A DNA stretch of 37,694 nt. Origin: a virus. The position numbers were made by a program, and so were the translations under genes. Location: positions 1 through 37,694 of the IMG/VR virus record IMGVR_UViG_3300009605_000050. The stretch is one strand, 5' to 3'. Below are positions 5,057-37,517 of the stretch, piece after piece. Every line of letters begins with the position of its first letter. The first letter of the stretch is position 1. The notes beneath the pieces were generated by a model that had not been told where the DNA came from, ran no database searches, and worked only from the letters and a program-made list of their open reading frames with translations.

Positions 5057-6315
5057 GCATTCGATTCTGTGGTTGCGGTTGCTTCGCTATCTGGTACATT
5101 GTGAAGGTCAACATCACCGTCAACCTTGTCGTACAAGTCCATGAAACCTTCCTTGGTATCATCATCGAATCGAGCGAGGCACATTGCGAGTGCTTTAGGC
5201 TTATCACCACCAAAGATTGCAAGTGCTTTAACGATGTCCACGAGGCGACGAGTCGAGATCACTTCATCAACTCCACCTTCGTAAAATGACTTGCGGATGA
5301 TACCTGCCCATTTGGTCAGGTGCTTTGCAAATTCGTTGTCATCGACATCAACTGATTCCATTGCTTTGCGAAGAATTTTACACTCAGTATTTTGAGGAGC
5401 ATATTCTTGCTCAAGTGTTACAGGGAATCGATCAAGGAATGCTTCATTCATTACAGCAGTACCGATGAAGCGACCATCATCACTACCTTTACCCTTGGTA
5501 TTAGCAGTTGCAAAAATTGTGAAACCGGCTGCAGGAGTGACCCACTGACCGATCTTCTTAAGGAACACACCCTTACCTTCAAGGACAGGTTGCAAGCACA
5601 TGATATTTGCGGATGCAAGATCAACTTCATCAAGAAGAAGAACACCACCATTTTTCATGGCTGCAACAACTGGGCCATCTTGCCACACTGTGCTACCATC
5701 GATGAGTCGGAATCCACCAAGTAGATCATCTTCATCGGTTTGCTTTGTGATGTTGACACGATAGCAATCGCGTTTTTGCTTAGCACACACTTGCTCAACC
5801 ATGGTGGTTTTACCGTTACCAGAAAGACCAGTCACGAAACAAGGATAAAAAATCTTTGCTTTGATGATTTGTTCAACATCTTTGAAGTTACCCCATGGTA
5901 CATAAGTCTTGATACGGTCAGGAATGAGAGTGTCTCGTTCACCACCAGTTAGACCCATAATCATGGACGCAGTAGTTAAAGAAGGTTGCTCAACCGCACC
6001 TTGTACGGGACCAGTCTGTGCGACATTTTCCACTTGTACAAGGGCGGGAGCAACCGGATCAGGAGCAGTGTGACCCAACTCAGGCATCGAGAAAATATCT
6101 CTGCTACGTCCGAGCGGACGACGAGTTTTATCGTGAGTTATCCACGAAGGAATCACGTTATAAATCCCTGTTGATGCACAAAGGTCAAGCAGTTCTAAGC
6201 GGGTTACGGTAGGGCAATCTTTCCCTTCGGGACCCCTCGTATACTTACCCAAACCTGCCTTACGCATTGCATCAAGGAAGTTATTTTTTCGTCGTGTTGT
6301 ATTGCTATTTGCCAT
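5044..6315 (-). CDS. cobS: CobS-like MoxR-type AAA+ ATPase
   Basis: 423 residues from ATG 6315, which has AGGAGATTCGAAAAC before it; a longer reading from 6399 would start upstream of the promoter. Walker A is GLSGNGKTTM (about 163-172), Walker B GGVLLLDEVDLA (about 223-234), sensor ATANTKG, and an arginine-finger region EAFLDRFPV. This is the MoxR/CobS branch, known in marine T4-like phages as CobS. Its usual partner is a VWA protein of CobT type, and one is present at 34337-36616. Both genes have the same promoter type and share upstream DNA elements, which supports a joint complex. True cobalt chelation is unproven for phage homologues. Confidence 0.85.
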   Translation of the reverse strand: MANSNTTRRKNNFLDAMRKAGLGKYTRGPEGKDCPTVTRLELLDLCASTGIYNVIPSWITHDKTRRPLGRSRDIFSMPELGHTAPDPVAPALVQVENVAQTGPVQGAVEQPSLTTASMIMGLTGGERDTLIPDRIKTYVPWGNFKDVEQIIKAKIFYPCFVTGLSGNGKTTMVEQVCAKQKRDCYRVNITKQTDEDDLLGGFRLIDGSTVWQDGPVVAAMKNGGVLLLDEVDLASANIMCLQPVLEGKGVFLKKIGQWVTPAAGFTIFATANTKGKGSDDGRFIGTAVMNEAFLDRFPVTLEQEYAPQNTECKILRKAMESVDVDDNEFAKHLTKWAGIIRKSFYEGGVDEVISTRRLVDIVKALAIFGGDKPKALAMCLARFDDDTKEGFMDLYDKVDGDVDLHNVPDSEATATTESNACPF

Positions 6316-6360
6316 GTTTTCGAATCTCCTGTATATTTCGAACTTTATTTCCGTACACCC

Positions 6361-7616: not shown

Positions 7617-8459
7617 ATGGTTAGGACAATTGAATATTTCTTAGCACTTGTAATATGCGCCCAAGGATGCCGCATGGCACCTCAAGCAGATACCGTACCA
7701 CCACCATCGTCAACAAAAGAAGAAGTTGCTGTTGTTGAACCAGAATTTTTTGGTGACTTTACCTCAAAATGGTTTAATGAAACAACACAAGAGGACGATC
7801 CGTATCCATCGGTTTGTAGTCTTTATCTTGAAGATGGTCATATAGTAGGTAGTGGTATACTTATCCGTCCTGATGTCGTTCTAACAGCAGGTCATTGTAT
7901 AAAAGATGACGATATTGTTTCTGTGGGATTTGGGGAAAGTGAAGAAGAGATCGCGGTCATTAAAATAGTGGTACACCCCTATTACAGCGAATCGTCAGGG
8001 CGGGTAAGAAACGACATAGGTCTTATTTTTCTTGAGTGCGAATCACAGTATGAACCCGCTACAATGGGGTGTGTAGAATGGATGGAAAGATACCAAGATA
8101 TAACCACTGTTGGTTATTCATTTGGTTATAAGAAATACAGTAAGTTAGGTGTGTTCAGGTATTTCGGTACAGTGGTAGAAGAACCGAATTACATGAAATT
8201 TATTCCAAGACCGATATCGGTTTGGTTTGGAGATAGTGGTGGTGGGGTTTTTGCTGAATTTGAAGAAGGTGAAAAGTACCTTGTTGGTGTGATTAGTAGT
8301 TTTGTTATTATTAAAGTGTATGGGGATAGAGAAGTGGTAACGGAGTGTTCTGCAGTTATTGTTGCAAAATATATAGACTGGATAAAGATGGAGATTTTAA
8401 TAAAAAATGATGCGATTGAACAGATTGTTGAAATTGATAAAGATGGAAGGAAGTGTTAG
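7617..8459 (+). CDS. Secreted trypsin-like serine protease (S1 family)
   Basis: 280 residues. The N-terminus (MVRTIEYFLALVICAQGC) is a signal sequence, possibly lipoprotein type with Cys18, though A-Q-G-C is a poor lipobox. The catalytic triad is complete: His93 in LTAGHC, Asp133 in RNDIGL, Ser207 in GDSGGG. This is a chymotrypsin-fold protease that should act outside the cytoplasm, probably in the periplasm. Such proteases are unusual among T4-like phage genes. A role in lysis, envelope remodelling or superinfection control are possible inferences. It is followed by overlapping micro-ORFs with membrane features. Confidence 0.85.
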   Translation: MVRTIEYFLALVICAQGCRMAPQADTVPPPSSTKEEVAVVEPEFFGDFTSKWFNETTQEDDPYPSVCSLYLEDGHIVGSGILIRPDVVLTAGHCIKDDDIVSVGFGESEEEIAVIKIVVHPYYSESSGRVRNDIGLIFLECESQYEPATMGCVEWMERYQDITTVGYSFGYKKYSKLGVFRYFGTVVEEPNYMKFIPRPISVWFGDSGGGVFAEFEEGEKYLVGVISSFVIIKVYGDREVVTECSAVIVAKYIDWIKMEILIKNDAIEQIVEIDKDGRKC

Positions 8460-8564: not shown

Positions 8565-9137
8565 ATGAGAATTGCTGGTATTGATTATAGTATGAGTTCT
8601 CCCGCTATTTGTACCCACATTGGAAACAAATGGCATTATAATAACTGTAACTTTTATTATCTAACCTCTGTTAAAAAACTTGCTACCAATTTTTGTGAAG
8701 GTAAGAGGTGGTATCAGTCACAGAATAGGTTTCACGGAACTTTACAACCCAAAAAACATAAAAACGACGAAGAGCGATTTGACAACATCTCCCATTGGGC
8801 GATGAAACACTGTCTTAAATTTGATTTTGTTGCTATTGAGGGATACGCGTTTGGTGCAACAGGAAGGGTATTCCAAGTTGCAGAAAATACCTCTATTTTA
8901 AAACATAAACTTTGGGAAACGGATACACCGTTTGGTGTTTATTCACCATCTACGATTAAAAAATTCGCTACTGGTAAAGGGAACGCAACCAAAGAAGACA
9001 TGTATGATGCTTGGTTGAAAGAAACTGGTGTCGACCTAAAAGAAATTATGATCCCAAATAGAGAAAAAGTAGGTAATCCAGTGACTGATATCGTGGATTC
9101 CTACTTTATCTGTAAGTATTATTATTTTTTACCTTAA
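8565..9137 (+). CDS. RuvC-like Holliday junction resolvase
   Basis: 190 residues. Opening MRIAGIDYSMSSPA gives the first catalytic Asp of the RNase H-like fold, VAIEGYAFGATG the catalytic Glu, YSPSTIKKFATGKGNATKED the RuvC helix region, and DIVDSYFICKYY the closing Asp pair. This layout is that of RuvC-type resolvases found in marine T4-like phages, which cut branched DNA before packaging. The stop overlaps the end of the convergent minus-strand gene by four bases. Confidence 0.78.
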   Translation: MRIAGIDYSMSSPAICTHIGNKWHYNNCNFYYLTSVKKLATNFCEGKRWYQSQNRFHGTLQPKKHKNDEERFDNISHWAMKHCLKFDFVAIEGYAFGATGRVFQVAENTSILKHKLWETDTPFGVYSPSTIKKFATGKGNATKEDMYDAWLKETGVDLKEIMIPNREKVGNPVTDIVDSYFICKYYYFLP

Positions 9138-10129
9138 GGAGGTCCCGGACCACCGGCCACAGGGTCATACGGATCCGTCTTCCATGGAAGAGGTTCAGGG
9201 AGAGATGCCACCCAAGCGGAACCATCCCAAATCATTATCAGTCCCATATCATCAGCCCAATATGACCATGATGTTTCGTTTCCATTTTCATCTAATTCAC
9301 CATTACCATACATACCCATTGATGCCCAAAGTTGGTCAGTCATGTCTGACGGTGGAAGATTCCAGACATCTGCCCAGTCTATACCATATTCGTCAAGAAT
9401 ATCTTGAAGGTACGGAGGAATATCTCCTACAACGACTGGGTCTGGAAGACCAAGAAGTGATCTGAATAACGCTCCCATTGCTAGCCATTGTGGATTATCA
9501 ACGGGATGGCATTGACCAGCAAAGTTGCAGTACTGACCCTCAAACATAAGGTTTGTCAAAAGGGCAAGATAGTTCCCAGCCACTATAGTACCATTATTCC
9601 AATTGTCCACAATTGCTTGGAACAAGTTCCATTGCATATCTGACATTCCATGATGTTCCACTTGTCCAAGCCCACCGATGTTGTTTAAGAGGGTCATTAA
9701 TGTGCTACCGCCACTCATGTCTCCTAAGAACCAATACCAGAAAGATGCCCAATAGGAGTTTCCTCCATTGGGCGACATGTCCCATGGGTTCATGTTATCA
9801 TATTCATTTCCAAATTCTGGTGGAAATGGTGCTTCACCTTGCATTCCACCTGCTACCCACGCATCGAATGATTTCTGCCATCCTGCAGTTACTCTAGATA
9901 TATTAAATTCATATGGTTCATTACTACCACCACTCCTATAGAGTCCTGAAATGGTGTTAGCAATACTGGGCTGTCGTGGATCTCGTCCACCAAAATCACC
10001 TGAGATTCGAGGTAGTTGTGGTAGTGCATTGGAAGCACCAAAATTACCACCACCACCTACAGGTATCTGTTCGTTCAATTTTTTTAGACCGTTAATTCTG
10101 CTTTGAAATATTTTATGTTGTAAGGTCAT
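9134..10129 (-). CDS. Trp-rich virion-type protein with prohead-cleavage leader (paralogue 1)
   Basis: 331 residues. The leader MTLQHKIFQSRINGLKKLNE ends in L-N-E at residue 20, a gp21-type site, followed by a Gly-rich linker (QIPVGGGGNFGASN) shared with the sister genes at 21833 and 36735. The body is rich in Trp, Asn, Gly and Pro (SYWASFWYWFLGDMSGG, QWNLFQAIVDNWNNGT). The family signature is W-x-x-x-F-W followed later by a short W-x-x-G/A-L-F segment. No enzyme motif is seen. DNA coding the linker (9985-10043) is identical at 58 of 59 positions to 22441-22499. Confidence 0.6.
   Translation of the reverse strand: MTLQHKIFQSRINGLKKLNEQIPVGGGGNFGASNALPQLPRISGDFGGRDPRQPSIANTISGLYRSGGSNEPYEFNISRVTAGWQKSFDAWVAGGMQGEAPFPPEFGNEYDNMNPWDMSPNGGNSYWASFWYWFLGDMSGGSTLMTLLNNIGGLGQVEHHGMSDMQWNLFQAIVDNWNNGTIVAGNYLALLTNLMFEGQYCNFAGQCHPVDNPQWLAMGALFRSLLGLPDPVVVGDIPPYLQDILDEYGIDWADVWNLPPSDMTDQLWASMGMYGNGELDENGNETSWSYWADDMGLIMIWDGSAWVASLPEPLPWKTDPYDPVAGGPGPP
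9985..10043. repeat. 59-bp repeat shared with 22441-22499
   Basis: Direct repeat, 58 of 59 bases identical to 22441-22499, both coding the segment just after the predicted cleavage site of two Trp-rich paralogues. The rest of the two genes differs strongly, so this is a recently exchanged cassette. Confidence 0.85.
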
Positions 10130-10581: not shown

Positions 10582-11544
10582 TTATTTATTCTTCTTTAGG
10601 TTTTTAAATCCGTTCTTGATCTTGATTTGTGATACAATCTTCTTAGTCATCGGACTGGTAAGCCTGCTAGCAAATCCATCTTGTCCAAAGATCTCTTTTC
10701 GTTCTTCATCGTCCAAATGTTCTTTCATTTCTTCAATAAGTTCAACTATTTCAAACAACGCTTTTTCATTATGTTTACCGTTAAGTAGCATAAACCCTAC
10801 AATAACCGCAGTAAGCAAAAATCCACCAATAAAAATGTATAACCCAATCTGGGCCATTTCCTCAAGATAATACTGTGATGCGGTTGCAAAACCTACGGTA
10901 AGGAATCCAATCGCCAATATCGTTCCACCTAGTTTCCTGTTTACCCAGAAGGTAACAAATACACCACCTATGATTAATGCAAACCCAATCGTAAAGAACA
11001 ATGCGATGTTCTCATATAGGTTTTCTAATGCTTGCTTTCTAACCTCCCTATCTGATTGTTCGTACTCTGTGACTAGATCCTCTAGTTCTTCTATCTGACC
11101 TATCGCGGCTGAAACTCTGGTGTTTGCTTGCTCCAGATCTTCTAGAGATTCGTCTATGCGAATTTGCTCTTTCTGTGCATCGTCCACAGTTTCTTTGATC
11201 GCTTCTGCGGAATTCTCTATGCTGTTTAGAGTCGGATCGACGTTGTAATTTCTGTCCTCTGGAACCAGTGCGATCTCGTTTAGAATCGAATTTGCTTGAT
11301 CGTCTATCTTCTCCAGATCGTTTCCAATCACCTCTGATGCGTTCGTTATCTCGTCGGTCTGTTCCTTCTGCTCTCGTACACTGTCCACGACTGTGCTCGA
11401 TGTGTGCATTGGCGCTTCTTTGTTCACCTCTTGGAACATCTCGCAACCGCTTATCACCATCAGAAGTCCTAGAATTAGAGGTAGATGACCACCTTGCTTT
11501 TGCTTCACTCTTAGTTTTCTCGATTTTCTTAATTTTTTCATCAT
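10582..11544 (-). CDS. Lipobox coiled-coil membrane protein (spanin-like layout)
   Basis: 320 residues from ATG 11544, which has AGAGGG at good spacing; GTG 11553 is less likely. A basic N-terminus is followed by HLPLILGLLMVISGC, a lipoprotein signal with lipobox I-S-G-C. Then comes about 130 residues of charged coiled coil (EIVGND to EYEQSD), three hydrophobic segments (IALFFTIGFALIIGGVFVTF, GTILAIGFLTVGFATA, IGLYIFIGGFLLTAVIVGF) and a basic tail. An outer-membrane lipid anchor joined by coiled coil to inner-membrane spans is the layout of unimolecular spanins, though those have one span. It overlaps another signal-peptide ORF for nearly 500 bases. Confidence 0.6.
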   Translation of the reverse strand: MMKKLRKSRKLRVKQKQGGHLPLILGLLMVISGCEMFQEVNKEAPMHTSSTVVDSVREQKEQTDEITNASEVIGNDLEKIDDQANSILNEIALVPEDRNYNVDPTLNSIENSAEAIKETVDDAQKEQIRIDESLEDLEQANTRVSAAIGQIEELEDLVTEYEQSDREVRKQALENLYENIALFFTIGFALIIGGVFVTFWVNRKLGGTILAIGFLTVGFATASQYYLEEMAQIGLYIFIGGFLLTAVIVGFMLLNGKHNEKALFEIVELIEEMKEHLDDEERKEIFGQDGFASRLTSPMTKKIVSQIKIKNGFKNLKKNK

Positions 11545-11629
11545 TTTGTACACCCTCTAAAGTTTTGTCAGCCACAGATGTCATTCCAAGTGTGGTCATT
11601 ACTATTAATACTATTGCTAATTTTTTCAT
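11048..11629 (-). CDS. Signal-peptide ORF overlapping the lipobox gene out of frame
   Basis: 193 codons. ATG 11629 has a proper AAAGGAAAAC ribosome site and begins MKKLAIVLIVMTTLGMTSVA, a clear signal peptide with an A-D cleavage site. After residue 28 it enters the sequence of the next gene in another frame for about 165 codons and becomes Arg/Ser-rich (SRRSGASKHQSFSRDRSDR). The start is convincing; the tail could be a frame shadow. Nested or overlapping secretion genes resemble Rz/Rz1 spanin pairs. A programmed frameshift into the lipobox frame is another possibility. Confidence 0.45.
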   Translation of the reverse strand: MKKLAIVLIVMTTLGMTSVADKTLEGVQNDEKIKKIEKTKSEAKARWSSTSNSRTSDGDKRLRDVPRGEQRSANAHIEHSRGQCTRAEGTDRRDNERIRGDWKRSGEDRRSSKFDSKRDRTGSRGQKLQRRSDSKQHREFRRSDQRNCGRCTERANSHRRISRRSGASKHQSFSRDRSDRRTRGSSHRVRTIR

Positions 11630-12439: not shown

Positions 12440-15400
12440 TTATTTGGCTGCCCTTTTGTTATGTTTAAGTCTTTGGTCGTTCATCCTGCGACGATAAATT
12501 GACATTTCACCAGACAATTCATTCTGAATAACAATAGGTTTGTTGGGGTTATTATGTGAGTATTTTCTAATTGGTGAATAATTTGGTGAGTCATCTTCGA
12601 AGAAGTTATTCCATCGTTCACCTTTATTGCGTCTAGTTTTACATTTTGAAAATTCATCTTCACTCACCTTAAAAACAGGATGACCGCAATAGTCATCTTT
12701 AAACTGTGGTGTTTCATCACCAGTACTAAGTGATCGCAGTGATTTCTCAAGGGATTCACCAATTTTTTGAGCATCCATCATCATGAGCATTTTTCTAGGA
12801 GAAAGTTTATCTTTCTTTTTTCTTCGCTTTCTCTTTTTAATACCAACTCTTGAATCATCACCAGTATGAGCAACACCTGCTGTACTAGTAGCAGGAGTTT
12901 CTTCTTCTATTGATTCAAAGAAATCGCTAAGATTATAGTTGGTAGATTCAGGCATATAATGGGTTTTTTTACCAGAACCCATTTTTTTAATTTTCTTATC
13001 ATCTAACCAAAAATCGATAGCACCTTGAACAAAACTTTTTTCAAGTTTAGTATCTTTTGCTATATTATCTATAGTCGAGTTATGTTTCTTAGATAGTTTT
13101 TCTATTGAATCAAAAACAACCAAGATGTCATCTTTCATTCGTGCTTCATCCAGCGAATGTTCAACGGACTCACCGAACGGATCTGGCCACCAATCTGGTA
13201 AATCGCCCCCTTCTTCTATTCCCAACAATTGCATAATCCAAGCAATGATCCACCATGGCGTACTTGGGTCGTTAATTAAGGTCATTATTTGGTCTGGGCT
13301 GTCAAACCCCGCATCTTGAAGTGCTTCCCAGCCGCCTCTTGCAATTCTGCTCATGTGGTCGCTTACAACCCTTATGGGTTTGGTGAGGGCTATGGTTATG
13401 TCGCTGGGTTCTTTGCGTGTTTCCGGTGGTCCTGGGTCCAACAAAGGTATACCTGTGGGGTTGTTGGGTGTGATTGGTATTACGTATGGTGGTGGAACTG
13501 CTTCATCCAGCGAATGTTCAACGGATTCAAGACCCAATATATTTTTACTATAGTTGCGTTCTATTTTTTTGATTTCTTTTTTTCTTTTTCTTTCACTTTT
13601 ATCAAAATCTCTCATTTTAAGAATCTTTTTGATCTTGTTAATAAAATTTTTTACACTCTCATCAAGTTCAGCAGATTCCATTTCTGTGGAAGGAGAGGTG
13701 ATTACTGAACCATCCTCAAGTTCAACTTCGTACATTTCTATTCCGTGTTCGTTACCCAAGTATTTTGTAGCAACTCCACTTTTACCTTGAACGATAACAT
13801 TTTTACCTAGTAGACGTGTTTCATCTATTTGAACAGACTCTTTAACGTCAATCATATGATATTTTGAAGCGGCCTTAGTAATGAATTCAACATCTTTTTG
13901 GTCTTTTGGAAATACCTCATAGACTCCCCTACCTTTTTGGGCTGTTGTGATTTTATGTTTATCCATAACTTTTAAAAAACTCTTAAGATTCGAATAGTTA
14001 CCCATACCTGAATCAAAAATTATTGGTGCAATTATTTTTTCATTAATGGATTCAAGTACGTCACTCCACTTACCCACAACTTCTTTATCGGCTTTGGTGA
14101 TGAAGGCTCTCCAACCTTTCTTTTTAATTTCATCAACTCGTTTCTTTGCTTGAGCAAGAGTCTTAAACGGTTCATTGGTGATATGTCCTTTTTTCTTTTT
14201 GTTCCATCTTACAAAAAATAACTTGGCATCTTCTTTATTTTTTGCTTTCAATTTTGCCATTGAAGCGTGGGCGCCCGGCTTTGACGGTTGCGGTCCACCC
14301 CAAAATTCACCCAAATGTTCAACGGATTCTTTCCTGCTAGCAAGGACTTTTGCAGTTTGTTTTGGGTTACGTCCTTTTTGGTATAACCAAATTGCAACAT
14401 CTGCATCTACATCGTCATAAGAAGAACGAATTTTCTTTAGTTCTCTCTCTAGTTCAGTCAACCACTTCATTAGTGGTTTTTCATCACTACCACGGTCTGC
14501 ACCTGTTGGCATTCCTGCAATGCGGTCACCACGAACGATTGCTTCATCAACGGATTCCACTACAATACCATGTGAGGTTCTTGTTGCTTTCCCAACATTA
14601 CCTTGCATTAATTTCCACAGTTTTTTAATGTAATTGGGCTTACCAACATTTAATAAACCACCACTAGAGAGTTTTTTACCGTTTTGGTGCGTTTTAACAA
14701 TTTGCATATAGCCGTCCGACGACACTTCCAGTTTATATTTGTCACCAAGATTACTACCCATATCTAAGGTATCAACAACTTTTAATCCTTCATGTAGTGT
14801 TTCTTCTTTTGCCATCTTAGTAGCAGTTGCATGCATCACACTTTCCCAATCATCACCATATCGGTCTTGGAATTCTTTCTTCTTTTTCTTCATTGAAAGA
14901 ACGATCTCTTCCTTTTTTTTTTCTTGGGAAGATGTGAGACTGTCTTCTTTAAGTGCAAATTCACCACCAGTTGTTTTACTAATAGTTGTTGCAAGTTTCT
15001 TTTTCTGAACAGCACTAAGTTGCTTCCAAGATTTTTTAAGAATCTTTTTAGCATCTATCTTAGCATACTTAGCAAAATCTTTTCTTTCAGTAGAACTTAA
15101 TTCGTTCCAATGAAGAGTTTCTGCTTCATCTAAACTGCAAAAATCGTCTAGGACAAAATTTTCTTGTACTGCGTATTCTTCATCCCATCCCATGTCTTTT
15201 AGAAATGATGCATAACTTGACCATGGTTTTTTCCTTTTACCTCTGGCAATTTCATGTTTTAGTGGATCTTCTGGTTCCTTTTGGCCGTGTTCACCGCTAG
15301 TATCGTCCGCACCATAACTATAAGTGTCTAATTCATCGTCGCTAACAAGTAGTCTTTCAATATCATCATTTGTGTATTCATGCTCTGTATATGGTCTGTT

Positions 15401-15757
15401 TGATTTATCAAAGGATTGCTTCACGTCAATCATTAAATCACTATAACCTGCCTTGTTTTTGCCCCACAATAAATCTACATAATTTTTAAACTCATCATGG
15501 TATCTTTCTGATTCTTCTTGACCGATAAGAGAAATCAAATTCCGTACGAAATCTTTTTTAGTTCTAGCATTAAATGACTTACCAGAGCGAGTAATTAAAG
15601 CATTCCAGTTAAGGGGGCCAGCGGTGAAAGCGGTCTGATCAGTAACATTGACATTAGTAAATGAGGATGCATGTGATTTACCAGCAGAGTGTGTTGGTAC
15701 TGCTTCAGAGAGCAAATCTTCGTTTAAACTATCAACTAATTCTGAGAAGGTCTTCAT
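12440..15757 (-). CDS. 1105-residue modular protein, candidate prohead-processed polyprotein
   Basis: The leader MKTFSELVDSLNE (cleavage after residue 13, again after L-S-E18) is of capsid-targeting type. Further (L/I)-x-E sites occur at 211, 323, 484, 573, 646, 700, 752, 871 and 952, mostly inside a recurring linker E-S-V-E-H-S-L-D-E-A or a variant. Between them lie unlike modules: a helical one (14-205), a basic helical one (212-320), small alpha/beta modules (324-400, 485-567, 574-640, 647-695), a basic helix (701-745), a Pro/Trp-rich hydrophobic one (758-860, with PWWIIAWIMQLLG) and a winged-helix-like one (873-935). I infer a fusion of several head-cargo peptides released by the prohead protease. 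No catalytic motif is recognised. Confidence 0.65.
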   Translation of the reverse strand: MKTFSELVDSLNEDLLSEAVPTHSAGKSHASSFTNVNVTDQTAFTAGPLNWNALITRSGKSFNARTKKDFVRNLISLIGQEESERYHDEFKNYVDLLWGKNKAGYSDLMIDVKQSFDKSNRPYTEHEYTNDDIERLLVSDDELDTYSYGADDTSGEHGQKEPEDPLKHEIARGKRKKPWSSYASFLKDMGWDEEYAVQENFVLDDFCSLDEAETLHWNELSSTERKDFAKYAKIDAKKILKKSWKQLSAVQKKKLATTISKTTGGEFALKEDSLTSSQEKKKEEIVLSMKKKKKEFQDRYGDDWESVMHATATKMAKEETLHEGLKVVDTLDMGSNLGDKYKLEVSSDGYMQIVKTHQNGKKLSSGGLLNVGKPNYIKKLWKLMQGNVGKATRTSHGIVVESVDEAIVRGDRIAGMPTGADRGSDEKPLMKWLTELERELKKIRSSYDDVDADVAIWLYQKGRNPKQTAKVLASRKESVEHLGEFWGGPQPSKPGAHASMAKLKAKNKEDAKLFFVRWNKKKKGHITNEPFKTLAQAKKRVDEIKKKGWRAFITKADKEVVGKWSDVLESINEKIIAPIIFDSGMGNYSNLKSFLKVMDKHKITTAQKGRGVYEVFPKDQKDVEFITKAASKYHMIDVKESVQIDETRLLGKNVIVQGKSGVATKYLGNEHGIEMYEVELEDGSVITSPSTEMESAELDESVKNFINKIKKILKMRDFDKSERKRKKEIKKIERNYSKNILGLESVEHSLDEAVPPPYVIPITPNNPTGIPLLDPGPPETRKEPSDITIALTKPIRVVSDHMSRIARGGWEALQDAGFDSPDQIMTLINDPSTPWWIIAWIMQLLGIEEGGDLPDWWPDPFGESVEHSLDEARMKDDILVVFDSIEKLSKKHNSTIDNIAKDTKLEKSFVQGAIDFWLDDKKIKKMGSGKKTHYMPESTNYNLSDFFESIEEETPATSTAGVAHTGDDSRVGIKKRKRRKKKDKLSPRKMLMMMDAQKIGESLEKSLRSLSTGDETPQFKDDYCGHPVFKVSEDEFSKCKTRRNKGERWNNFFEDDSPNYSPIRKYSHNNPNKPIVIQNELSGEMSIYRRRMNDQRLKHNKRAAK
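13143..13168. repeat. Linker-coding direct repeat, copy 1
   Basis: A 26-bp stretch identical to 13500-13525. Both code the E-S-V-E-H-S-L-D-E-A linker at module borders of the polyprotein; shorter relatives lie near 14309 and 14543. Confidence 0.8.
13500..13525. repeat. Linker-coding direct repeat, copy 2
   Basis: Identical to 13143-13168 over 26 bases, marking the border before the Pro-rich module of the polyprotein. Confidence 0.8.
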
Positions 15758-16759: not shown

Positions 16760-18331
16760 TTAACGTGACTTGGCTTGTGCAGCAAGCATTGCACCAGTAA
16801 CACCATAAGCATAATCTGCTAAGACGTATATACCTTCAGGGAACCTTATAGTTGCGTTATCATCAACAATATTAAAACCTTCTACCGTATTCCCTTGATT
16901 TGATCCTATTCTGAATCCCGTGTAGGCAGAACCAAAGCCTGGATGTACACCATTAACATAAGCACGACCATGCAAAAATCCATCTGTAATACAAACATCA
17001 GTATCAGGAGATAAAGTGTAATGCAATCTAATAGTACCTGCTCGTACATTTGCACTTTCTATTGTACACCCACATAATATCTCAAACGGATTATTATATG
17101 TGGTGCCAACAGCATTATGAAGAGGATTTTCCGATTCTAAGGTTAGATTTTCAATTGTGTGACGACCACTACCATGCAGTATAACTGGTGCGATGTGTGC
17201 ATGAGTAAGGCCATCAGATGCAGAGCCCCAACTAAAACCCTCTGATGGATAAATGTTTAGATTTTTAATGTCGCAATCTAGTGCTACCAAACCATAATTG
17301 GGATGATCAGGAGTACCAAAGGAACTACCCCTATTTGCATATATATCAACTTGTGCAATTTTTTTGCTATCAGAGCCAGAACTACCATATCCTTGGATAT
17401 AGGTTGCTCTATTTGCATAACCAAAAGTGCCGCCCGTGGTCCCACCGCCGCCTTGCTCGTTGTGAGAATTCGAGAACAAGGTTACATAACCTTCGAATGT
17501 GGTGCCTGTAATTTTGGTATATGCTTCAGAATCCGGTGCAGAATTGGGATAAACACCCCAATTGCGCCGTTGATAAAGAAAATTCATTCTACTATCATAA
17601 AGTTGGAATTCCGAACCACCAAAAACCTTACAACCGTATGTAAATAGAGATTTATTTAGTTTGGTCATGTTCACCCTATCAGACTTGAAGCCTTCGGGAA
17701 CTTCCGAAAGTGGAACTTCCAAAGGCCCGATACCACCACCGAATGGCGGTATGCCTTGACTTGGATGCAACGGTGAGTCTTGAGTATAAATACGTAACAT
17801 GTCAGTGTTTATTCTTAGACTATCATAACCTCTCATGCCCGAATATTTGCTACCAGATGTACCTTCACCACCCATTGAATAGATATAGTCACCACTAATC
17901 GCTCCAAAATGTTGGTGGTATCCTCTGTGCACATTCAACCACTGTAATGCCCCACTAGCGCCTCCAGTAGCATCATTTGCCGCCTGCGTTTCACCACTCC
18001 AAGTTAAACCTGTGCCTGGTGTTCCTCTACAACCACCAAACAAAAGAGGGGCTCTAGGAAAGGGGCCACCGCTAAGTCCAATACTTGCATCATTTGGTAA
18101 ATAGTCAAGATAAACTTCGTCACCTGCAGTGGGGAACTCAGTTACAACAGGATCAGTGAAGTGCCAAAAACCACCAGAGTTACCAGTTGGCCCTTGAACT
18201 CGCTTTTTCCAGTTTCCCCAATAGTTGTAAAAATTACCTGTGTGACCACCTGCAGTACCACCACCGCATGCGCCCACGAAAACGGATCCATCTGCGTTTA
18301 GGGCTTGACCTGTCCAAAAATATGTTGCCAT
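16760..18331 (-). CDS. Large Gly-rich virion protein, beta-solenoid-like
   Basis: 523 residues. The start MATYFWTGQALNADGSVFVG recalls the M-A-T-Y-x-W-x-G opening of appendage or surface proteins in marine myoviruses. The body is Gly, Ser, Thr and Asn rich with repeating short strands (ATYIQGYGSSGSDSKKIAQV, LVALDCDIKNLNIYPSEGF, GTIRLHYTLSPDTDVCITDG), suggesting a right-handed beta-helix. It is probably an exposed fibre or decoration protein. It has no cargo leader. Confidence 0.6.
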   Translation of the reverse strand: MATYFWTGQALNADGSVFVGACGGGTAGGHTGNFYNYWGNWKKRVQGPTGNSGGFWHFTDPVVTEFPTAGDEVYLDYLPNDASIGLSGGPFPRAPLLFGGCRGTPGTGLTWSGETQAANDATGGASGALQWLNVHRGYHQHFGAISGDYIYSMGGEGTSGSKYSGMRGYDSLRINTDMLRIYTQDSPLHPSQGIPPFGGGIGPLEVPLSEVPEGFKSDRVNMTKLNKSLFTYGCKVFGGSEFQLYDSRMNFLYQRRNWGVYPNSAPDSEAYTKITGTTFEGYVTLFSNSHNEQGGGGTTGGTFGYANRATYIQGYGSSGSDSKKIAQVDIYANRGSSFGTPDHPNYGLVALDCDIKNLNIYPSEGFSWGSASDGLTHAHIAPVILHGSGRHTIENLTLESENPLHNAVGTTYNNPFEILCGCTIESANVRAGTIRLHYTLSPDTDVCITDGFLHGRAYVNGVHPGFGSAYTGFRIGSNQGNTVEGFNIVDDNATIRFPEGIYVLADYAYGVTGAMLAAQAKSR

Positions 18332-19498: not shown

Positions 19499-19506
19499 TA
19501 TTTATA
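19499..19506 (-). promoter_or_regulatory. T4-type late promoter box (TATAAATA)
   Basis: Perfect box 44 bases above ATG 19454, with GAGGATT as ribosome site between. It overlaps the stop of the upstream gene. Confidence 0.65.
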
Positions 19507-21664
19507 CAGAAAGAAGGCTAAAATCTATGTTAAGAATAATTTTTTCTTCTTCCGATAGTTCATATTTCTTATTTACATTTACTGAATAATTTGCTTTTTT
19601 CAAAAATTCTTGACCGAGAAGTACAGAATAACTCATTTCTTCCCTATCGGTTAATGAAAATGGTTCATTTTTATAGGTTTTCCCACCCATCTTCATGTCC
19701 AATAAAACAACTGGTCTTCTTTCTACCGACTTTTTTTCATCTCCGTTGCCACCAGTATTAACCTTAGTGGTATCTTCAACTGGTAATGTTATTTCTTTTC
19801 CAAATTCTGTAGTGAATGAAACCTTACCATTTTTAATTGTAATATCTTCTGCATGTAAGGAGTTGTGTCCTGAATTTCCAGTGTCAGCACGTGCATTAAG
19901 AACCCCTATTCCCTCAATATCTACTTGTTCTATTCTACCTATTTCTTTGGATGAAAATTGCCAGTTATCTTTGTCTGTTATGTAATCTACAATATAATTT
20001 ACAATTTCTTGACCGGTTACTTTGTCCTTATCATCCATATAATATGTAAAATATTCATCTGCACCACTGCCAGGCGATCCATTAATTTCAAGTACTTTGT
20101 GTTCATCTTTACCGACAGTAATATGATCCACACCACACAAATAACAACCGATTGCTTTTGCGGCCTTTAGTGCAAGTTTTTTCTCTTTTTCTGATAATTC
20201 ATATGGTTCAGTATCACTACCTAGTGCTTTATTTGTTCTAAAATCATTTTCACCTTTTACTCTTTTAATGCTAGCAATTATTTCACCATCCAATACTATA
20301 GTTCTTATATCATAATCTATTTCGAAATATTCTTGTATAATAATCTCCGCATCAAATTTCCATAGCGACTGTAATACGCTTTTTAATGATTCATAGGAGT
20401 CAACAATGGAAACACCAATCCCTTCTGCACCAGTAAGAGTTTTTAACACGACAGGAAAATCACCGCCCACTTTTTCCAACGCTGTATCTATTGCTTTTTC
20501 ATTAGAAACTAATGCTGTTTTTGGTGATGGAATTTTTTCTCTTTCTAAGAGCATTGCTGTTGCAAATTTATTTCTTGCAAGTTCCATATGGCTTAATTTA
20601 TTAACACAGAAAACACCAGCATCTTGTAGTATGCTAAATAACCCAATACCGGCATAATTATATAAAACTCCACCACGCGGCCAGCATACTGTGTTTTTTG
20701 TATCAATAGTTACTTTATTATCATCACCATCATAATTATGAACTACTAGTTCATCATCTGAGACTTCTTTGTCTACAATATATGCATCGTCAACAGATAT
20801 AGTATAAAAATTAATACCCAATTTGTCTGCAGATTTCTCTATTTTTTCTACAGTATTTTTTAAATCTTTTTTATCATCAAATTTAGATAATACCACCAAT
20901 ACCGGCTTCTTTTCTTTGTCGTCATCTTCTTCATTAATTATAGAAAGATATTTTAATGCGCCATCTGAAAGAGTATTAGTTGCTTCAAACAACAAATCAA
21001 TCTCTGTTGTTTCCAAAAGATTTAAACTATCAAAAAATTTTTCAATCTCTTCTCTGATACCCATTTCTTTTTTAATGATATTAAACATTTTTTTAGTGTC
21101 ACCACTGCTCATACCAGAGGGTACACCAGATTTGAATGATTCAAAGTCATTATTAGCCGCTGATTTTCTCATTTTAGATGCAGACATACCACTAACATCG
21201 TCCGCATCAGGATCTCTCTTCCCTGCACTGACTACTTTAAACGTGTCGAAATTAAAAGATTTTTTAGGGTCTGAATGGTTAATATACTTTCTGATATCTT
21301 TATCCAGTTCTTTAACCCTATCACCACCCACTACCAAAATTACATGTTTATACCCATCGTCACTTAGTTTTTTTGCAACATAAAATGGATTTATTAATTT
21401 TGGACTATTAATAATATTGGCGTTTTTGAAAGAATTTTTCAAAAACTTAATTTTGTCTTTATATGGAAGTGGATTTCTTGTTTTATCGTGAGATGTACTT
21501 GCGTACACACCATGGTCAAAACCGTGTTGTTTAGCAACCCCTAAGACTTTTTTAATTAATAACTCATGGCCAGCATGAGGAGGGCTGAACCTACCAAAGG
21601 TAAATACAATCCCCTTTTCAGTTCCTTCATTAAGAACATATTTTTTAATAGAGTCAAAGTCCAT
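19502..21664 (-). CDS. Nucleotidyltransferase / RimK-like ATP-grasp / RimB-like retropepsin fusion with cleavage leader
   Basis: 720 residues in three parts. (1) Residues 15-205: nucleotidyltransferase with TFGRFSPPHAGH (22-33) and SGMSASKMR (158-166), as in NMNAT-type enzymes. (2) Residues 254-575: ATP-grasp ligase of RimK type, with KFATAMLLEREKIPSPKTAL, VVLKTLTGAEGIGV and the metal site VLEINGSPG. RimK adds glutamate to ribosomal protein S6. (3) Residues 580-705: RimB-type retropepsin-like domain (VDIEGIGVLNARADTGNSGH, SVLLGQEFL). The leader MDFDSIKKYVLNE has a gp21-type site after L-N-E (13), and the linker between parts 1 and 2 has L-L-E, L-F-E and I-N-E (218, 227, 245), so the parts may be separated in the head. 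The target is not known. Confidence 0.8.
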   Translation of the reverse strand: MDFDSIKKYVLNEGTEKGIVFTFGRFSPPHAGHELLIKKVLGVAKQHGFDHGVYASTSHDKTRNPLPYKDKIKFLKNSFKNANIINSPKLINPFYVAKKLSDDGYKHVILVVGGDRVKELDKDIRKYINHSDPKKSFNFDTFKVVSAGKRDPDADDVSGMSASKMRKSAANNDFESFKSGVPSGMSSGDTKKMFNIIKKEMGIREEIEKFFDSLNLLETTEIDLLFEATNTLSDGALKYLSIINEEDDDKEKKPVLVVLSKFDDKKDLKNTVEKIEKSADKLGINFYTISVDDAYIVDKEVSDDELVVHNYDGDDNKVTIDTKNTVCWPRGGVLYNYAGIGLFSILQDAGVFCVNKLSHMELARNKFATAMLLEREKIPSPKTALVSNEKAIDTALEKVGGDFPVVLKTLTGAEGIGVSIVDSYESLKSVLQSLWKFDAEIIIQEYFEIDYDIRTIVLDGEIIASIKRVKGENDFRTNKALGSDTEPYELSEKEKKLALKAAKAIGCYLCGVDHITVGKDEHKVLEINGSPGSGADEYFTYYMDDKDKVTGQEIVNYIVDYITDKDNWQFSSKEIGRIEQVDIEGIGVLNARADTGNSGHNSLHAEDITIKNGKVSFTTEFGKEITLPVEDTTKVNTGGNGDEKKSVERRPVVLLDMKMGGKTYKNEPFSLTDREEMSYSVLLGQEFLKKANYSVNVNKKYELSEEEKIILNIDFSLLSV

Positions 21665-21832: not shown

Positions 21833-22582
21833 TTAATCTTGTCCACCTTCGCCCCATTGTCCACCACTAATGATGCTACTAAGGATTTCCCAGATTGACC
21901 ACGCTGGGGAATCTGCTGGGATTGGATCACCATTTATGTATCTTCCAGTAAGGAACATCCATAATACGTATGGACTTCCTTGTGCAAAGGCGCCCCAATA
22001 GACTATTTCGGATTGGGGTATTTCTGGTTGTCCTGCCTGCATCCATATCCTATATAAAGGACTAGGGTTACCAGCATGTCCTCTCCATTGGTGATCTCCA
22101 GTTGCACCTGTTGCACTAACGGTGTCACCAACAAACCAAGCCATAAAGGAAACCCAGAACCAGAACGGACTGTTGCCAGGATTCACTACCCCAACACTAC
22201 CGTCTTCAACCCATGCGTCATACACATCACTTTCGGCATATGTGACAGTTTCACCAGATGCGTTAATGGCATAAGGAGGCCATGGTATCTCCACTTCTTT
22301 TTGCCATGCACCACCTGCATCAAGATATGCATCAAACTGCTCTACCCATTTTGGGCTCATATCCCATCTTGGGAAACTGGGCCAAATAAGACCATAAAGC
22401 CCTGCAGTTATATTAGCAATGGCGGATCGATCAACCTTGAGTCCACCAAAATCACCTGAGATTCGAGGTAGTTGTGGTGGTGCATTGGAAGCACCAAAAC
22501 CAACACCGCCTGCAGGTGCTTGTTCATATAGTTTGTTAACAGATTCAGTTAAACTTCTTAATAACTTGTTTGGATCTTTCAT
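21833..22582 (-). CDS. Trp-rich virion-type protein with double cleavage leader (paralogue 3)
   Basis: 249 residues. The leader MKDPNKLLRSLTESVNKLYE has sites after L-T-E (13) and L-Y-E (20). The linker QAPAGGVGFGASNAPPQLP is nearly that of the gene at 9134, while the first 28 bases around the start are identical to those of the gene at 36735. The body has Trp/Pro-rich segments (SPFWFWVSFMAWFVGDT, GSPYVLWMFLTGRYINGD). The family lacks enzyme motifs and is probably a head or virion component. Confidence 0.62.
   Translation of the reverse strand: MKDPNKLLRSLTESVNKLYEQAPAGGVGFGASNAPPQLPRISGDFGGLKVDRSAIANITAGLYGLIWPSFPRWDMSPKWVEQFDAYLDAGGAWQKEVEIPWPPYAINASGETVTYAESDVYDAWVEDGSVGVVNPGNSPFWFWVSFMAWFVGDTVSATGATGDHQWRGHAGNPSPLYRIWMQAGQPEIPQSEIVYWGAFAQGSPYVLWMFLTGRYINGDPIPADSPAWSIWEILSSIISGGQWGEGGQD
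22441..22499. repeat. 59-bp repeat shared with 9985-10043
   Basis: Second copy of the linker cassette; one mismatch in 59 bases to the copy in the gene at 9134. Confidence 0.85.
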
Positions 22583-22598: not shown

Positions 22599-23873
22599 TT
22601 ACTTTCCTTTAGATATATATCTTTGTAAAAATTGTCTTAGTTTGTTTGGATCATCTTTCAGTCTTTGTATTACTTCAAGTGGTGGTTTCTCAGGTTTGGT
22701 ATCTACAGGAGGTTGTTGTTGACCCATTGGAGGCTGTCCACCCATTGGAGGTTGTCCACCCATTGGAGGTTGTCCACCCATTGGAGGTTGTTGTTGACCT
22801 TGTGGAGGTTGTCCACCCATTGGAGGTTGACCGCCAGGTTGTCCAGCCATCATTTGTTGCATTAAACTACCACCTGCAGGGCCACCTTCTTGTTCGGGCG
22901 TTTCTGGTACACCACCCCAGAATTGTGCACCTTTCATAGCCAGACTCTTTTGCTGGTCAACACCACCCATTCCATCTGGAATTTCTACTGGTGCACCAGG
23001 CGTTTGATGTGGTGTTTGCACTTGAGGATCTTTCTGACCCTCTTCTTTTGATTTAGCCGCTATTTTGTCTAATTGTGCATAATCTAAAGGAACTGGTGTT
23101 TCTTCACGTGATGCTCCACGAATTAATGTTGGATCAGTACCAGAGCCATTTGGGGTATTGTACGCATCAGGGTTTACACCACCAGATGGTTGAGAAACTC
23201 TCATCTCACCGGCTGCTTTCATGTAACCAGCCATGATATCACCATTGATATCTCTAGACGATCTAAGTCCAGGCGTTGTATCGTCTGCTCTTATAAATTT
23301 TTGCTTTTGTCCAGAAAAAGGATCCCACAAATCCATTTCTTGTGGTTCTTGTTGCTGTTGCTGTTGCTGTTGCTGGCCTTGACCACCGGGCATTTGACCT
23401 TGTGGTTGACCTTGACCACCCATTTGTTGCATCATTTGTTGCATCATGTCTTTCTGACCACCTTGTGGCGGTGGTTGCTGTGGTTGACCTTGTGGTTGAC
23501 CTTGTGGCGGTGGTTGCTGTGGTTGACCCTGTGGTTGACCCTGTGGTGTACCTTGTGGTCCTTGTGGTTGACCCTGTTGTTGTTGTGGTGGGCCACTTGG
23601 TTGCAAAGGCGTTTTGGGTACTCCAGTTTTTATGGGTCTACCTCTACCACCCATTTTCTGTTGCATCATCTGTTGCAGTTTGTCTTCGCGACTATCACCA
23701 CCCATTTGCAAAGAACCATCACCATCAAATCGTTTGTCCTTTTTTGTCCTATTCACAATTTTTTGAAGCATCTTGGAGTGTGAGGGAGAACGACGACGAC
23801 TAGTAGCAACTTGTTCAACAATTGATTTTGCGTTTCTGTTTATTGGATCAAATTTATTAAAATTAATGTACAT
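22599..23873 (-). CDS. Gln/Pro/Gly-rich low-complexity protein with cleavage leader
   Basis: 424 residues from ATG 23873 (MYINFNKFDPINRNAKSIVE), just below the stop of the upstream gene and preceded by AAAGGG; the 23909 reading overlaps that gene. I-V-E at residue 20 fits the prohead site and is followed by a basic stretch (RRRSPSHSK). Most of the body is low complexity: Gln runs, G-Q-P-Q-G and P-P-M-G-G-Q repeats, and M-M-Q-Q-M-M-Q-Q. The few ordered parts include LWDPFSGQKQKFIRADDTTP and a helical end (PNKLRQFLQRYISKGK). Probably a disordered head or virion protein. Confidence 0.6.
   Translation of the reverse strand: MYINFNKFDPINRNAKSIVEQVATSRRRSPSHSKMLQKIVNRTKKDKRFDGDGSLQMGGDSREDKLQQMMQQKMGGRGRPIKTGVPKTPLQPSGPPQQQQGQPQGPQGTPQGQPQGQPQQPPPQGQPQGQPQQPPPQGGQKDMMQQMMQQMGGQGQPQGQMPGGQGQQQQQQQQQEPQEMDLWDPFSGQKQKFIRADDTTPGLRSSRDINGDIMAGYMKAAGEMRVSQPSGGVNPDAYNTPNGSGTDPTLIRGASREETPVPLDYAQLDKIAAKSKEEGQKDPQVQTPHQTPGAPVEIPDGMGGVDQQKSLAMKGAQFWGGVPETPEQEGGPAGGSLMQQMMAGQPGGQPPMGGQPPQGQQQPPMGGQPPMGGQPPMGGQPPMGQQQPPVDTKPEKPPLEVIQRLKDDPNKLRQFLQRYISKGK
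22721..22830. repeat. Short tandem repeat coding P-P-M-G-G-Q
   Basis: About five copies of an 18-base unit related to CCACCCATTGGAGGTTGT, with one or two interrupting variants. This is a likely site of length variation within the low-complexity gene. Confidence 0.75.
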
Positions 23874-23887
23874 TTTTCCCTTTACAA

Positions 23888-24205
23888 TTATTGTTGGCTT
23901 TGAACCCATCTAAGAAAATCTTCCCAGTATCGTTTTTGTTGTTCTTGTGACACTCTTCGTGCAATATCCATTTGAGTTGGTGATAAACCTTTATCATACG
24001 GTCTAACTACTATACCAGTATCACCTTCAAGCCCGGCTATAGCATCAGTATATGTTGCTGATCCACCACCAGTCTTAGTACCACCCAAAGAGGTTCCAGC
24101 ACTACCAGACTTAGAAGGTGGAGTCGCTTCGTTCATCACATTATCATCATGACGATTTATAATACCTTTTATAACTTGTTTTCTAAGACGGTAAATGTCA
24201 GACAT
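23888..24205 (-). CDS. Small hypothetical virion-cluster protein
   Basis: 105 residues. N-terminus MSDIYRLRKQVIKGIINRHD leads to M-N-E-A at 24-27, a borderline cleavage site, then a Gly/Ser/Thr linker (SKSGSAGTSLGGTKTGGGSA) and a helical C-terminus (SPTQMDIARRVSQEQQKRYW). The layout is a short helix, a flexible linker and a helix. No recognised domain. Confidence 0.5.
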   Translation of the reverse strand: MSDIYRLRKQVIKGIINRHDDNVMNEATPPSKSGSAGTSLGGTKTGGGSATYTDAIAGLEGDTGIVVRPYDKGLSPTQMDIARRVSQEQQKRYWEDFLRWVQSQQ

Positions 24206-36734: not shown

Positions 36735-37517
36735 TCAATCAGCCCAATGGTAATGATACCATCGCCAATAATCTGGATTGCCGCTCCATGATTGTCCCCA
36801 GAATAGTTGTCCAAAGAAAACATGCATATACCAATTGTGGCCATCGCCCCAATAATCGGTTCCTGAAGGGTGAGTGTATAGTACTTGACCAAGTAACCAA
36901 TTTATTGCATAAGGGCTGCCATGGGCTGCTGCTTGCATTAGATTGTAGAAATGCTCAGCACCATCAAAATCTGTTGGACCACCCCAAACACCTTGGCCTA
37001 TGGATTGCATCATCATATCATACGGAGTACCATAATCGGGTACACCATTCATATCTTCATCGCTCCCAACAAACCAATTTAAGAATGAAAACCAGAATAA
37101 GTATGAATCTACATCCAAACCTCCAGGCTGATTTTCGAAAAATTCAATATTGAGGTGTTGTGCCGCAGGATTTGAAATCATAGGTGGTGGAAAACCTGCC
37201 TCAGAACCGTCTGGCCATCTGTGAGGGATACCACTCGATGTATCACCAGTCGCCACCCATTTTTCATAATTTGCAGCCCAATCAGAATCAACTAAAAATG
37301 GTGGTGTTTCAGGCCACGAACCTCTAAGGGCTCTAGTTGTTACACGTTCAGTAGGTCGAGGTCTTTCTCTTGTTTCAAGATCGCCTATTTGTTGTATAGA
37401 AGGTATAGTAGGATCTGTTTGACCAAATCCATTACCACCACCTGCAGGTATGGTCTGTTCATATAGTCTATTAACAGATTCTGTTAAATTTCTTAATGAT
37501 TTGTTTGGATCTTTCAT
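36735..37517 (-). CDS. Trp-rich virion-type protein with double cleavage leader (paralogue 4)
   Basis: 260 residues. The leader MKDPNKSLRNLTESVNRLYE carries sites after L-T-E (13) and L-Y-E (20), then QTIPAGGGNGFGQTDPTIP, the linker form of the gene at 18351. The body shows SYLFWFSFLNWFVGSDEDMN and GSPYAINWLLGQVLYTHPSG, with a His/Tyr/Trp end (YWRWYHYHWAD). It is closest to the partial gene just upstream, so this is a tandem duplication. The position next to early genes is unusual for a virion family. Confidence 0.62.
   Translation of the reverse strand: MKDPNKSLRNLTESVNRLYEQTIPAGGGNGFGQTDPTIPSIQQIGDLETRERPRPTERVTTRALRGSWPETPPFLVDSDWAANYEKWVATGDTSSGIPHRWPDGSEAGFPPPMISNPAAQHLNIEFFENQPGGLDVDSYLFWFSFLNWFVGSDEDMNGVPDYGTPYDMMMQSIGQGVWGGPTDFDGAEHFYNLMQAAAHGSPYAINWLLGQVLYTHPSGTDYWGDGHNWYMHVFFGQLFWGQSWSGNPDYWRWYHYHWAD

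Follow-up and report, generated by a model that had tools for sequence, protein, structure and literature searches.

T4-like phages count among the most abundant viruses of aquatic habitats; for most of their small proteins, no role is known. In T4 itself, the first ten residues of the internal protein IPIII, its capsid-targeting sequence (CTS), are sufficient for packaging (PMC9026906), the internal proteins inhibit restriction enzymes (PMC12373910), and Alt is cleaved by the protease gp21 near both of its ends, after ITE-6 and LTE-619 (PMC5694885). Here we analyze a 1105-residue open reading frame (ORF) in a 37.7-kb linear virus fragment from IMG/VR (record IMGVR_UViG_3300009605_000050, positions 1 to 37,694; this whole stretch is called the window below). 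The locus resembles T4 IPI-IPIII and Alt in a short leader ending in [LI]xE (Leu or Ile, any residue, Glu), in the presence of an S77 prohead protease in the same viruses, and in the variability of the small proteins concerned; each T4 internal protein has a gene of its own, whereas many modules here follow one leader within one ORF, with sites between them. Sequence comparison gives good support to the view that this ORF encodes a chain of modules bordered by protease-type sites, and the chain is likely cut inside the prohead into about a dozen pieces. The full reading, in which a head-targeted polyprotein would be processed by the prohead protease to about 12 pieces and its linkers would double as recombination joints, we consider correct with a probability of roughly 70%.

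The original prediction, made without database searches, had described a polyprotein of head cargo at positions 12440-15757 and gave no strand. The ORF is real and runs on the minus strand, from 15757 down to 12440. All eleven sites that had been proposed (residues 13, 18, 211, 323, 484, 573, 646, 700, 752, 871, and 952) match [LI]xE, and four further matches (271, 435, 849, and 1001) bring the total in the ORF to 15. The recurring linker ESVEHSLDEA has two exact copies (residues 744 and 863) and five looser variants (residues 401, 477, 569, 640, and 948). Its repetition at the DNA level, put at 26 identical bases, is in fact exact over 27 bp (TCCGTTGAACATTCGCTGGATGAAGCA, 13142-13168 and 13499-13525). 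The Ser codon TCC is used in 5 of 7 linkers as opposed to 5 of 84 positions elsewhere in the ORF (p = 1e-4), so that the likeness of the linkers extends to the DNA, beyond the protein alone. An exact-pattern search with the whole 1105-residue protein returned zero relatives, Pfam gave no match at E up to 1, and sequence searches against Pfam, PHROGs, and PDB assigned no function to the chain.

The leader, MKTFSELVDSLNE, is of the T4 capsid-targeting type, as had been supposed, and is one among many such leaders in the window, where [LI]xE falls within the first 24 residues in 22 of 41 genes (7.6 expected) and where MKSFKQYISE, MKSFKEYITE, MITFKQYITE, and MKTFSELVDSLNE all occur. Like the leaders of T4-type internal proteins, these are about 10-20 residues long, end in [LI]xE, and are common to unlike proteins. 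Counterparts of the chain's own leader are MKTFSELVDSLNE/DIISE/AVPA in the related locus L099 and MKTFSELVNSLQE/EKSNLIE/ in the upstream ORF of locus L010 (slashes mark proposed borders), and the gp23 leaders of relatives hold LxE at the expected place (LFE/Q, LAE/A, and LQE/T). The leaders MKDPNKLLRSLTESVNKLYEQ of the genes at 21833-22582 and 36735-37517 carry the pattern ESVxxLxE, which also fits the linkers ESVELDE and ESVDELDE of loci L098 and L104. Together with the gene at 9134-10129, these two genes (minus strand) form a set of Trp/Gly/Pro-rich paralogues with leaders in common, two of them thus resembling the inter-module linkers.

Two parts of the chain served to collect relatives: a cassette at residues 272-323 yielded 470 and the C-terminal module 192. 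The comparison of whole-module gain and loss at the borders, which the original prediction had put forward as a check, was strongly positive in L010, L107, L099, and L098. In L010 the modules (numbered as in Table 1) are spread over two adjacent ORFs of 894 and 547 residues; the first has the same leader, M1, and M4 at its C-terminal end, and the second has its own leader ending in VINE/, followed by M2N, the cassette, three other modules, and the C-terminal module. Module order is M2N-cassette-X-Y-Z-anchor in this second ORF and M4-M2N-Z-X-Y-anchor in L107. Hence, M2N stands directly behind an N-terminal leader in L010 (VINE/SETIHW) and behind M4 in L107 (IKE/ETLHW), where M4 itself directly follows the leader. 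Nearly all borders in these two loci are [LI]xE or VxE. The 1237-residue protein of L099 has M3 and the block M5-M7 replaced and lacks M9. M9 corresponds exactly to the segment that the 27-bp repeat copies enclose and is likewise missing from L098, and in both loci M8 leads to M10 through LAE/ATVSE/ARTKD. The homologues of M1 in L010 and L099 both carry a long proline-rich insert. The DNA alignment of the window with L099 breaks at residues 404, 484, and 871; between the two, nine border or leader sites are kept as [LI]xE and three more as VxE or IxE. Over 9,690 bp, L098 and L099 share 99.9% identity; upstream of this stretch they are unrelated, and the break lies inside the linker GAATCCGTTGAACTGGRTGAA/GCA; it is a recent recombination event, or its trace, at a linker. 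Modules are kept at 60-90% identity amid swapped neighbors, and the C-terminal module is found alone, at the C-terminus, or at the N-terminus in 32 proteins (C-terminal in 28). The modules are thus exchangeable cassettes that are fused, split, reordered, and replaced, with the junctions at linkers, and the sites fall between rather than inside independently inherited modules. Many T4-like phages of marine and fresh waters have mosaic relatives, and as a statement about nature the claim that such a strategy is not usual for this group does not stand, although the papers searched do not describe these proteins.

A 594-residue ORF in the window records how such a chain arises. Its counterparts in G011, the 126-kb record that contains L099, are two genes (1165-1911 and 1908-2357), each with its own leader; the leader of the downstream gene, MISFKQYVVEL/FEKPY, is retained in the fusion as the linker EAFKQYILMIEA/FDKPY (AFKQYILMIEA/FDKPY). 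In this way, leader-bearing genes fuse and the leader turns into a linker. Taken together, the near-identity of linker DNA, the junction inside a linker, and the leader that became a linker suggest that linkers serve both as protease sites and as exchange joints. Pseudomonas phage PA5oct has a homologue of the FDKPY part that carries the annotation structural protein.

The coincidence of [LI]xE with module borders was quantified in nine related proteins, from which L098 was left out as nearly identical to L099. Aligned blocks start within three residues of [LI]xE in 14 of 52 cases and end there in 14 of 31, compared with 3.9 and 2.3 for randomly shifted sites (p = 0.001). In 237 mosaic proteins from all fetched loci, 73 of 334 starts and 86 of 366 ends lie near [LI]xE (31 and 35 expected; z 8.3 and 9.3), which is 2.3-2.5 times the shifted controls. 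Among ten motifs compared in this larger set, [LI]xE scored highest at starts and ends alike, and [LI]xD and [LI]xK showed no enrichment at block starts. Block ends are fuzzy and the linkers resemble each other; these statistics therefore demonstrate a coincidence of sites and borders, not cleavage. The number of motifs, 15 against 11.7 in shuffled sequences (p = 0.19), does not exceed chance and was dropped as evidence; their position relative to the borders is far from chance, and it is placement, not count, that matters.

Of 40 non-redundant cassette copies, 21 have [LI]xE at a single constant offset, and in most others the L/I is replaced by V, M, or a different residue; no site lies between the cassette border and its YG motif in any of 42 copies. 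A few cassette copies begin with Met near the border site. In stand-alone genes for the C-terminal module, a conserved Gly/Ala near the N-terminus is residue 8-10 counting from Met; in most fused modules with a recognizable site, with exceptions, the same Gly/Ala lies 8-10 residues past the cut. Start Met and cut site thus fall at nearly the same residue, and modules begin by translation or, seemingly, by cleavage. Internal translation starts were considered as a source of the modules and rejected, since no ribosome-binding-site-like sequence precedes the internal Met codons near the borders.

Comparative support exists for the borders at residues 13 and 18 (leader), 211, 271, 323, 405, 484, 752, 871, 952, and 1001, and in part for 700. 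Three of these (271, 405 with V in place of L/I, and 1001) extend the list originally proposed. In L099 the counterpart of VDE at 405 is IEE, that of 871 is VSE, and that of 952 is VEE; position 952 is also the start point of a stand-alone gene. The site at 435 lies in a helix inside M4 and is lost in L010 and L107, and the one at 849, inside M9, is unsupported; hence, neither is likely to be a border.

The close relatives carry the presumed processing enzyme. Of the large relatives found, G011 is the closest; it is collinear with the window across most genes (50-90% protein identity) and encodes both a T4-type S77 prohead protease (PF03420, E 7.5e-44) and gp23 (E 4e-131), the combination expected of a virus with CTS proteins. 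Its gp23 is 53-54% identical to that of Pelagibacter phage HTVC008M and other T4-like phages, and in HTVC008M a 359-residue cassette protein is preceded by DUF7207 and then a protein of the phrog_18642 type, the same as in the window. The S77 protease is present in 18 of 21 relative records; the three without it are fragments of 13, 16, and 68 kb. An isolate with a chain of this kind is Synechococcus phage BUCT-ZZ01 (host Synechococcus elongatus), which has the S77 protease and a 612-residue protein with 14 sites. We infer from the T4 internal proteins that the leader would bring the chain into the prohead core. The S77-type protease would then cleave the linkers behind the Glu of their [LIV]xE motifs. 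Some 12 products with expected sizes of 5-22 kDa would be released, stay inside the head, and probably pass into the host along with the DNA.

Modeled alone, the C-terminal module reaches an AlphaFold predicted local distance difference test (pLDDT) score of 75. Weak fold matches link it to the C-termini of phage Inh and Hoc (Foldseek E 0.015-0.08; Z 3.6 over 74 residues for the T4 Hoc capsid-binding domain), and profile comparison (hhalign) with Inh and Hoc was not significant. Inh is an inhibitor of the gp21 protease. Shell binding or an effect on the protease is a candidate role for the module. In connection with L190 (6188-8008), the C-termini of T4 Inh and Hoc were seen to match each other (hhalign Prob 83, E 8.5e-6). 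A resemblance of M11 to the GCN2 C-terminal domain (PDB match, Z 3.8 over 68 residues) was judged to reflect a common arrangement and was discarded.

Several observations weigh against a processed polyprotein. The full-length AlphaFold model has a mean pLDDT of 47, too low for a fold search, and its domains cannot be told from linkers; 271 and 323 frame the best-predicted stretch, and only 435 and 849 lie in better-predicted parts. The borders at 573 and 646 have no homologue for comparison and depend on the motif, some borders carry V or another residue for L/I (405 here, and those before the anchor in L010 and L107), and the window ends short of the protease gene region. Other Glu-containing motifs are enriched at borders as well, less so than [LI]xE, because borders are generally Glu-rich. 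Poor structure prediction, together with the very basic or very acidic character of several modules, would suit a disposable core protein, a scaffold-like filler of the prohead that is chopped and cleared like T4 gp22, gp67, and gp68 and has no later role. We regard this as unlikely, since a gp22-like scaffold already exists as a separate ORF beside gp23 in three relatives, the same modules exist as stand-alone genes that start with Met at the cut position, and sequence is conserved at 60-90% in modules whose neighbors are swapped, the cassette staying free of sites upstream of its YG motif.

The fold matches to Inh and Hoc, weak as they are, and the C-terminal place of the module in 28 of 32 proteins, as in Hoc and Inh themselves, would also fit an uncut multidomain protein that sits on the shell by its C-terminal domain, with the N-terminal mosaic as decoration or protease regulator and the [LI]xE of the linkers incidental. 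Capsid binding and processing are mutually compatible, but an uncut protein leaves unexplained why there is a capsid-targeting leader, why [LI]xE coincides with borders, and why start Met and cut site are equivalent, and profile comparison with Inh and Hoc was not significant; we hold it to be quite improbable. Still less credit is due to the idea that the motifs are merely scars of recombination between fused and shuffled leader-bearing genes, vestiges of former leaders whose cleavage has ceased. Linker DNA is more conserved than the protein requires, junctions fall there, and the linker of the 594-residue ORF is visibly an old leader; yet [LI]xE is retained as the linker around it changes, at the nine sites shared by the window and L099 with their three VxE or IxE companions, and at the cassette it persists in 21 of 40 contexts that differ widely.

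Table 1. Modules, leader, and linker repeats of the 1105-residue chain, and a second fusion ORF of the window.
Feature	Residues	Position	Strand	Remark
Capsid-targeting leader, sites LNE-13 and LSE-18	1-18	15704..15757	-	Conserved in L099 and L010
M1	19-211	15125..15703	-	Homologue behind same leader in L010 (894-aa ORF) and L099
M2N (SLDE/AETLHW)	212-271	14945..15124	-	Moved in L010 and L107
M2C, cassette (LKE/DSLTSSQEKKKEEIV..VMHATATKMA)	272-323	14789..14944	-	470 IMG/VR relatives; AlphaFold pLDDT 73-90
M3	324-405	14543..14788	-	Unrelated module between same neighbors in L099
M4 (VDE/AIVRGDRIAGMPTGADRGSDEK)	406-484	14306..14542	-	blastn block to L099 ends at residues 404, 484
M5	485-573	14039..14305	-	No homologue found; border 573 by motif alone
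M6	574-646	13820..14038	-	No homologue found; border 646 by motif alone
M7	647-700	13658..13819	-	No match in isolate phages; M5-M7 replaced en bloc in L099
M8	701-752	13502..13657	-	Common to L099 and L098, 60% identity
M9, acidic, Trp/Pro-rich, between 27-bp repeat copies	753-871	13145..13501	-	Absent from L099 and L098
M10, helical	872-952	12902..13144	-	blastn block to L099 begins at residue 871
M11a (IEE/ETPATSTAGVA)	953-1001	12755..12901	-	Stand-alone genes of 88-104 aa, Met at same register
M11b, small alpha/beta domain	1002-1105	12443..12754	-	AlphaFold pLDDT 75
27-bp linker repeat, copy 1 (SVEHSLDEA)		13499..13525	-	
27-bp linker repeat, copy 2 (SVEHSLDEA)		13142..13168	-	
Second polyprotein-like ORF, 594 aa		26407..28191	-	Two separate G011 genes plus one more FDKPY module

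Searches of isolate phages with M4, M5, M7, and M10 (tblastn) gave zero matches. Elsewhere in the window, the gene at 7617-8459 (plus strand) has a signal-peptide-like start with a lipobox-like VICAQGC and matches the phage protease family phrog_9683; we read its product as a secreted trypsin-like protease in a T4-like phage. A 523-residue ORF at 16760-18331 (minus strand; MATYFWTGQALNADGS) is missing at this place in G011 and L010, a protein that starts like it lies shortly downstream of gp23 in L181 (2823-4181), and the ORF is possibly mobile between sites. Two long ORFs overlap in different frames at 11048-11629 and 10582-11553 (minus strand); the same pair occurs in L010 (7422-7943 and 7495-8412), and one of the two resembles a lipoprotein or membrane protein. 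The gene at 19502-21664 (minus strand) joins cytidylyltransferase, RimK-type ATP-grasp, and retropepsin-like Zn_protease domains behind a leader ending in VLNE/G; the cyanophage cytidylyltransferase T4-GC190 has been detected in virions (PMC3037559). A 436-residue Gln/Pro/Gly-rich low-complexity protein with GGQPP repeats (22599-23909, minus strand) has a relative in G011 (5395-6327).

If the chain is processed as proposed, hundreds of hypothetical phage proteins could be divided at [LI]xE into their true functional units, many of which would likely be carried in the head and enter the host, like the T4 proteins that disarm restriction enzymes; a counter-defense role for the pieces is, by this analogy, a first guess. 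The locus would also illustrate a phage route to in-frame exchange of cargo with packaging retained. Tentatively, and with odds that we place slightly below even, T4-like phages might more generally run a combinatorial cargo system, in which leader-derived linkers with conserved DNA would be cut by the prohead protease and would also provide the homology for recombination. Whole cargo proteins could then be swapped in frame without loss of head targeting and processing, and any module joined in this manner would be packaged, released, and delivered.

Known systems share parts of this arrangement. A literature search for phage polyproteins cut by a prohead protease yielded only the polyvalent-protein paper and multi-cut propeptides, which is weak evidence of absence, as the collection searched lacked most subscription journals. 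The latter belong to phiKZ-like giant phages (SPN3US gp53, gp47, and others), in which the precursors of ejected head proteins receive multiple prohead-protease cuts; there the extra cuts lie in the propeptide, and one mature product per gene is reported (PMC10052503). T4 gp22, gp67, and gp68 likewise undergo gp21 cleavage at many positions within the prohead, but they are reduced to short peptides, and the scaffold of the present lineage is a separate gene. Polyvalent proteins combine many unlike domains in one chain, which is presumably packaged and delivered (Iyer et al., 2017, PMC5512222). In contrast to those chains, which have recognizable enzymatic domains and often an embedded peptidase, the present one contains no Pfam domain, none of the polyvalent-class domains (peptidase, ADP-ribosyltransferase, lysozyme, ArdC-N, and others) being detected in it by Pfam at E up to 1, and its presumed protease would act in trans from the head genes. 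The authors of the polyvalent-protein study compared their chains with viral polyproteins (PMC5512222). With the polyproteins of eukaryotic RNA viruses, the chain described here shares one ORF, putative protease sites between domains, and, if it is cut as proposed, separate products; the analogy is one of strategy only, reached without common ancestry and with other proteases and other products.

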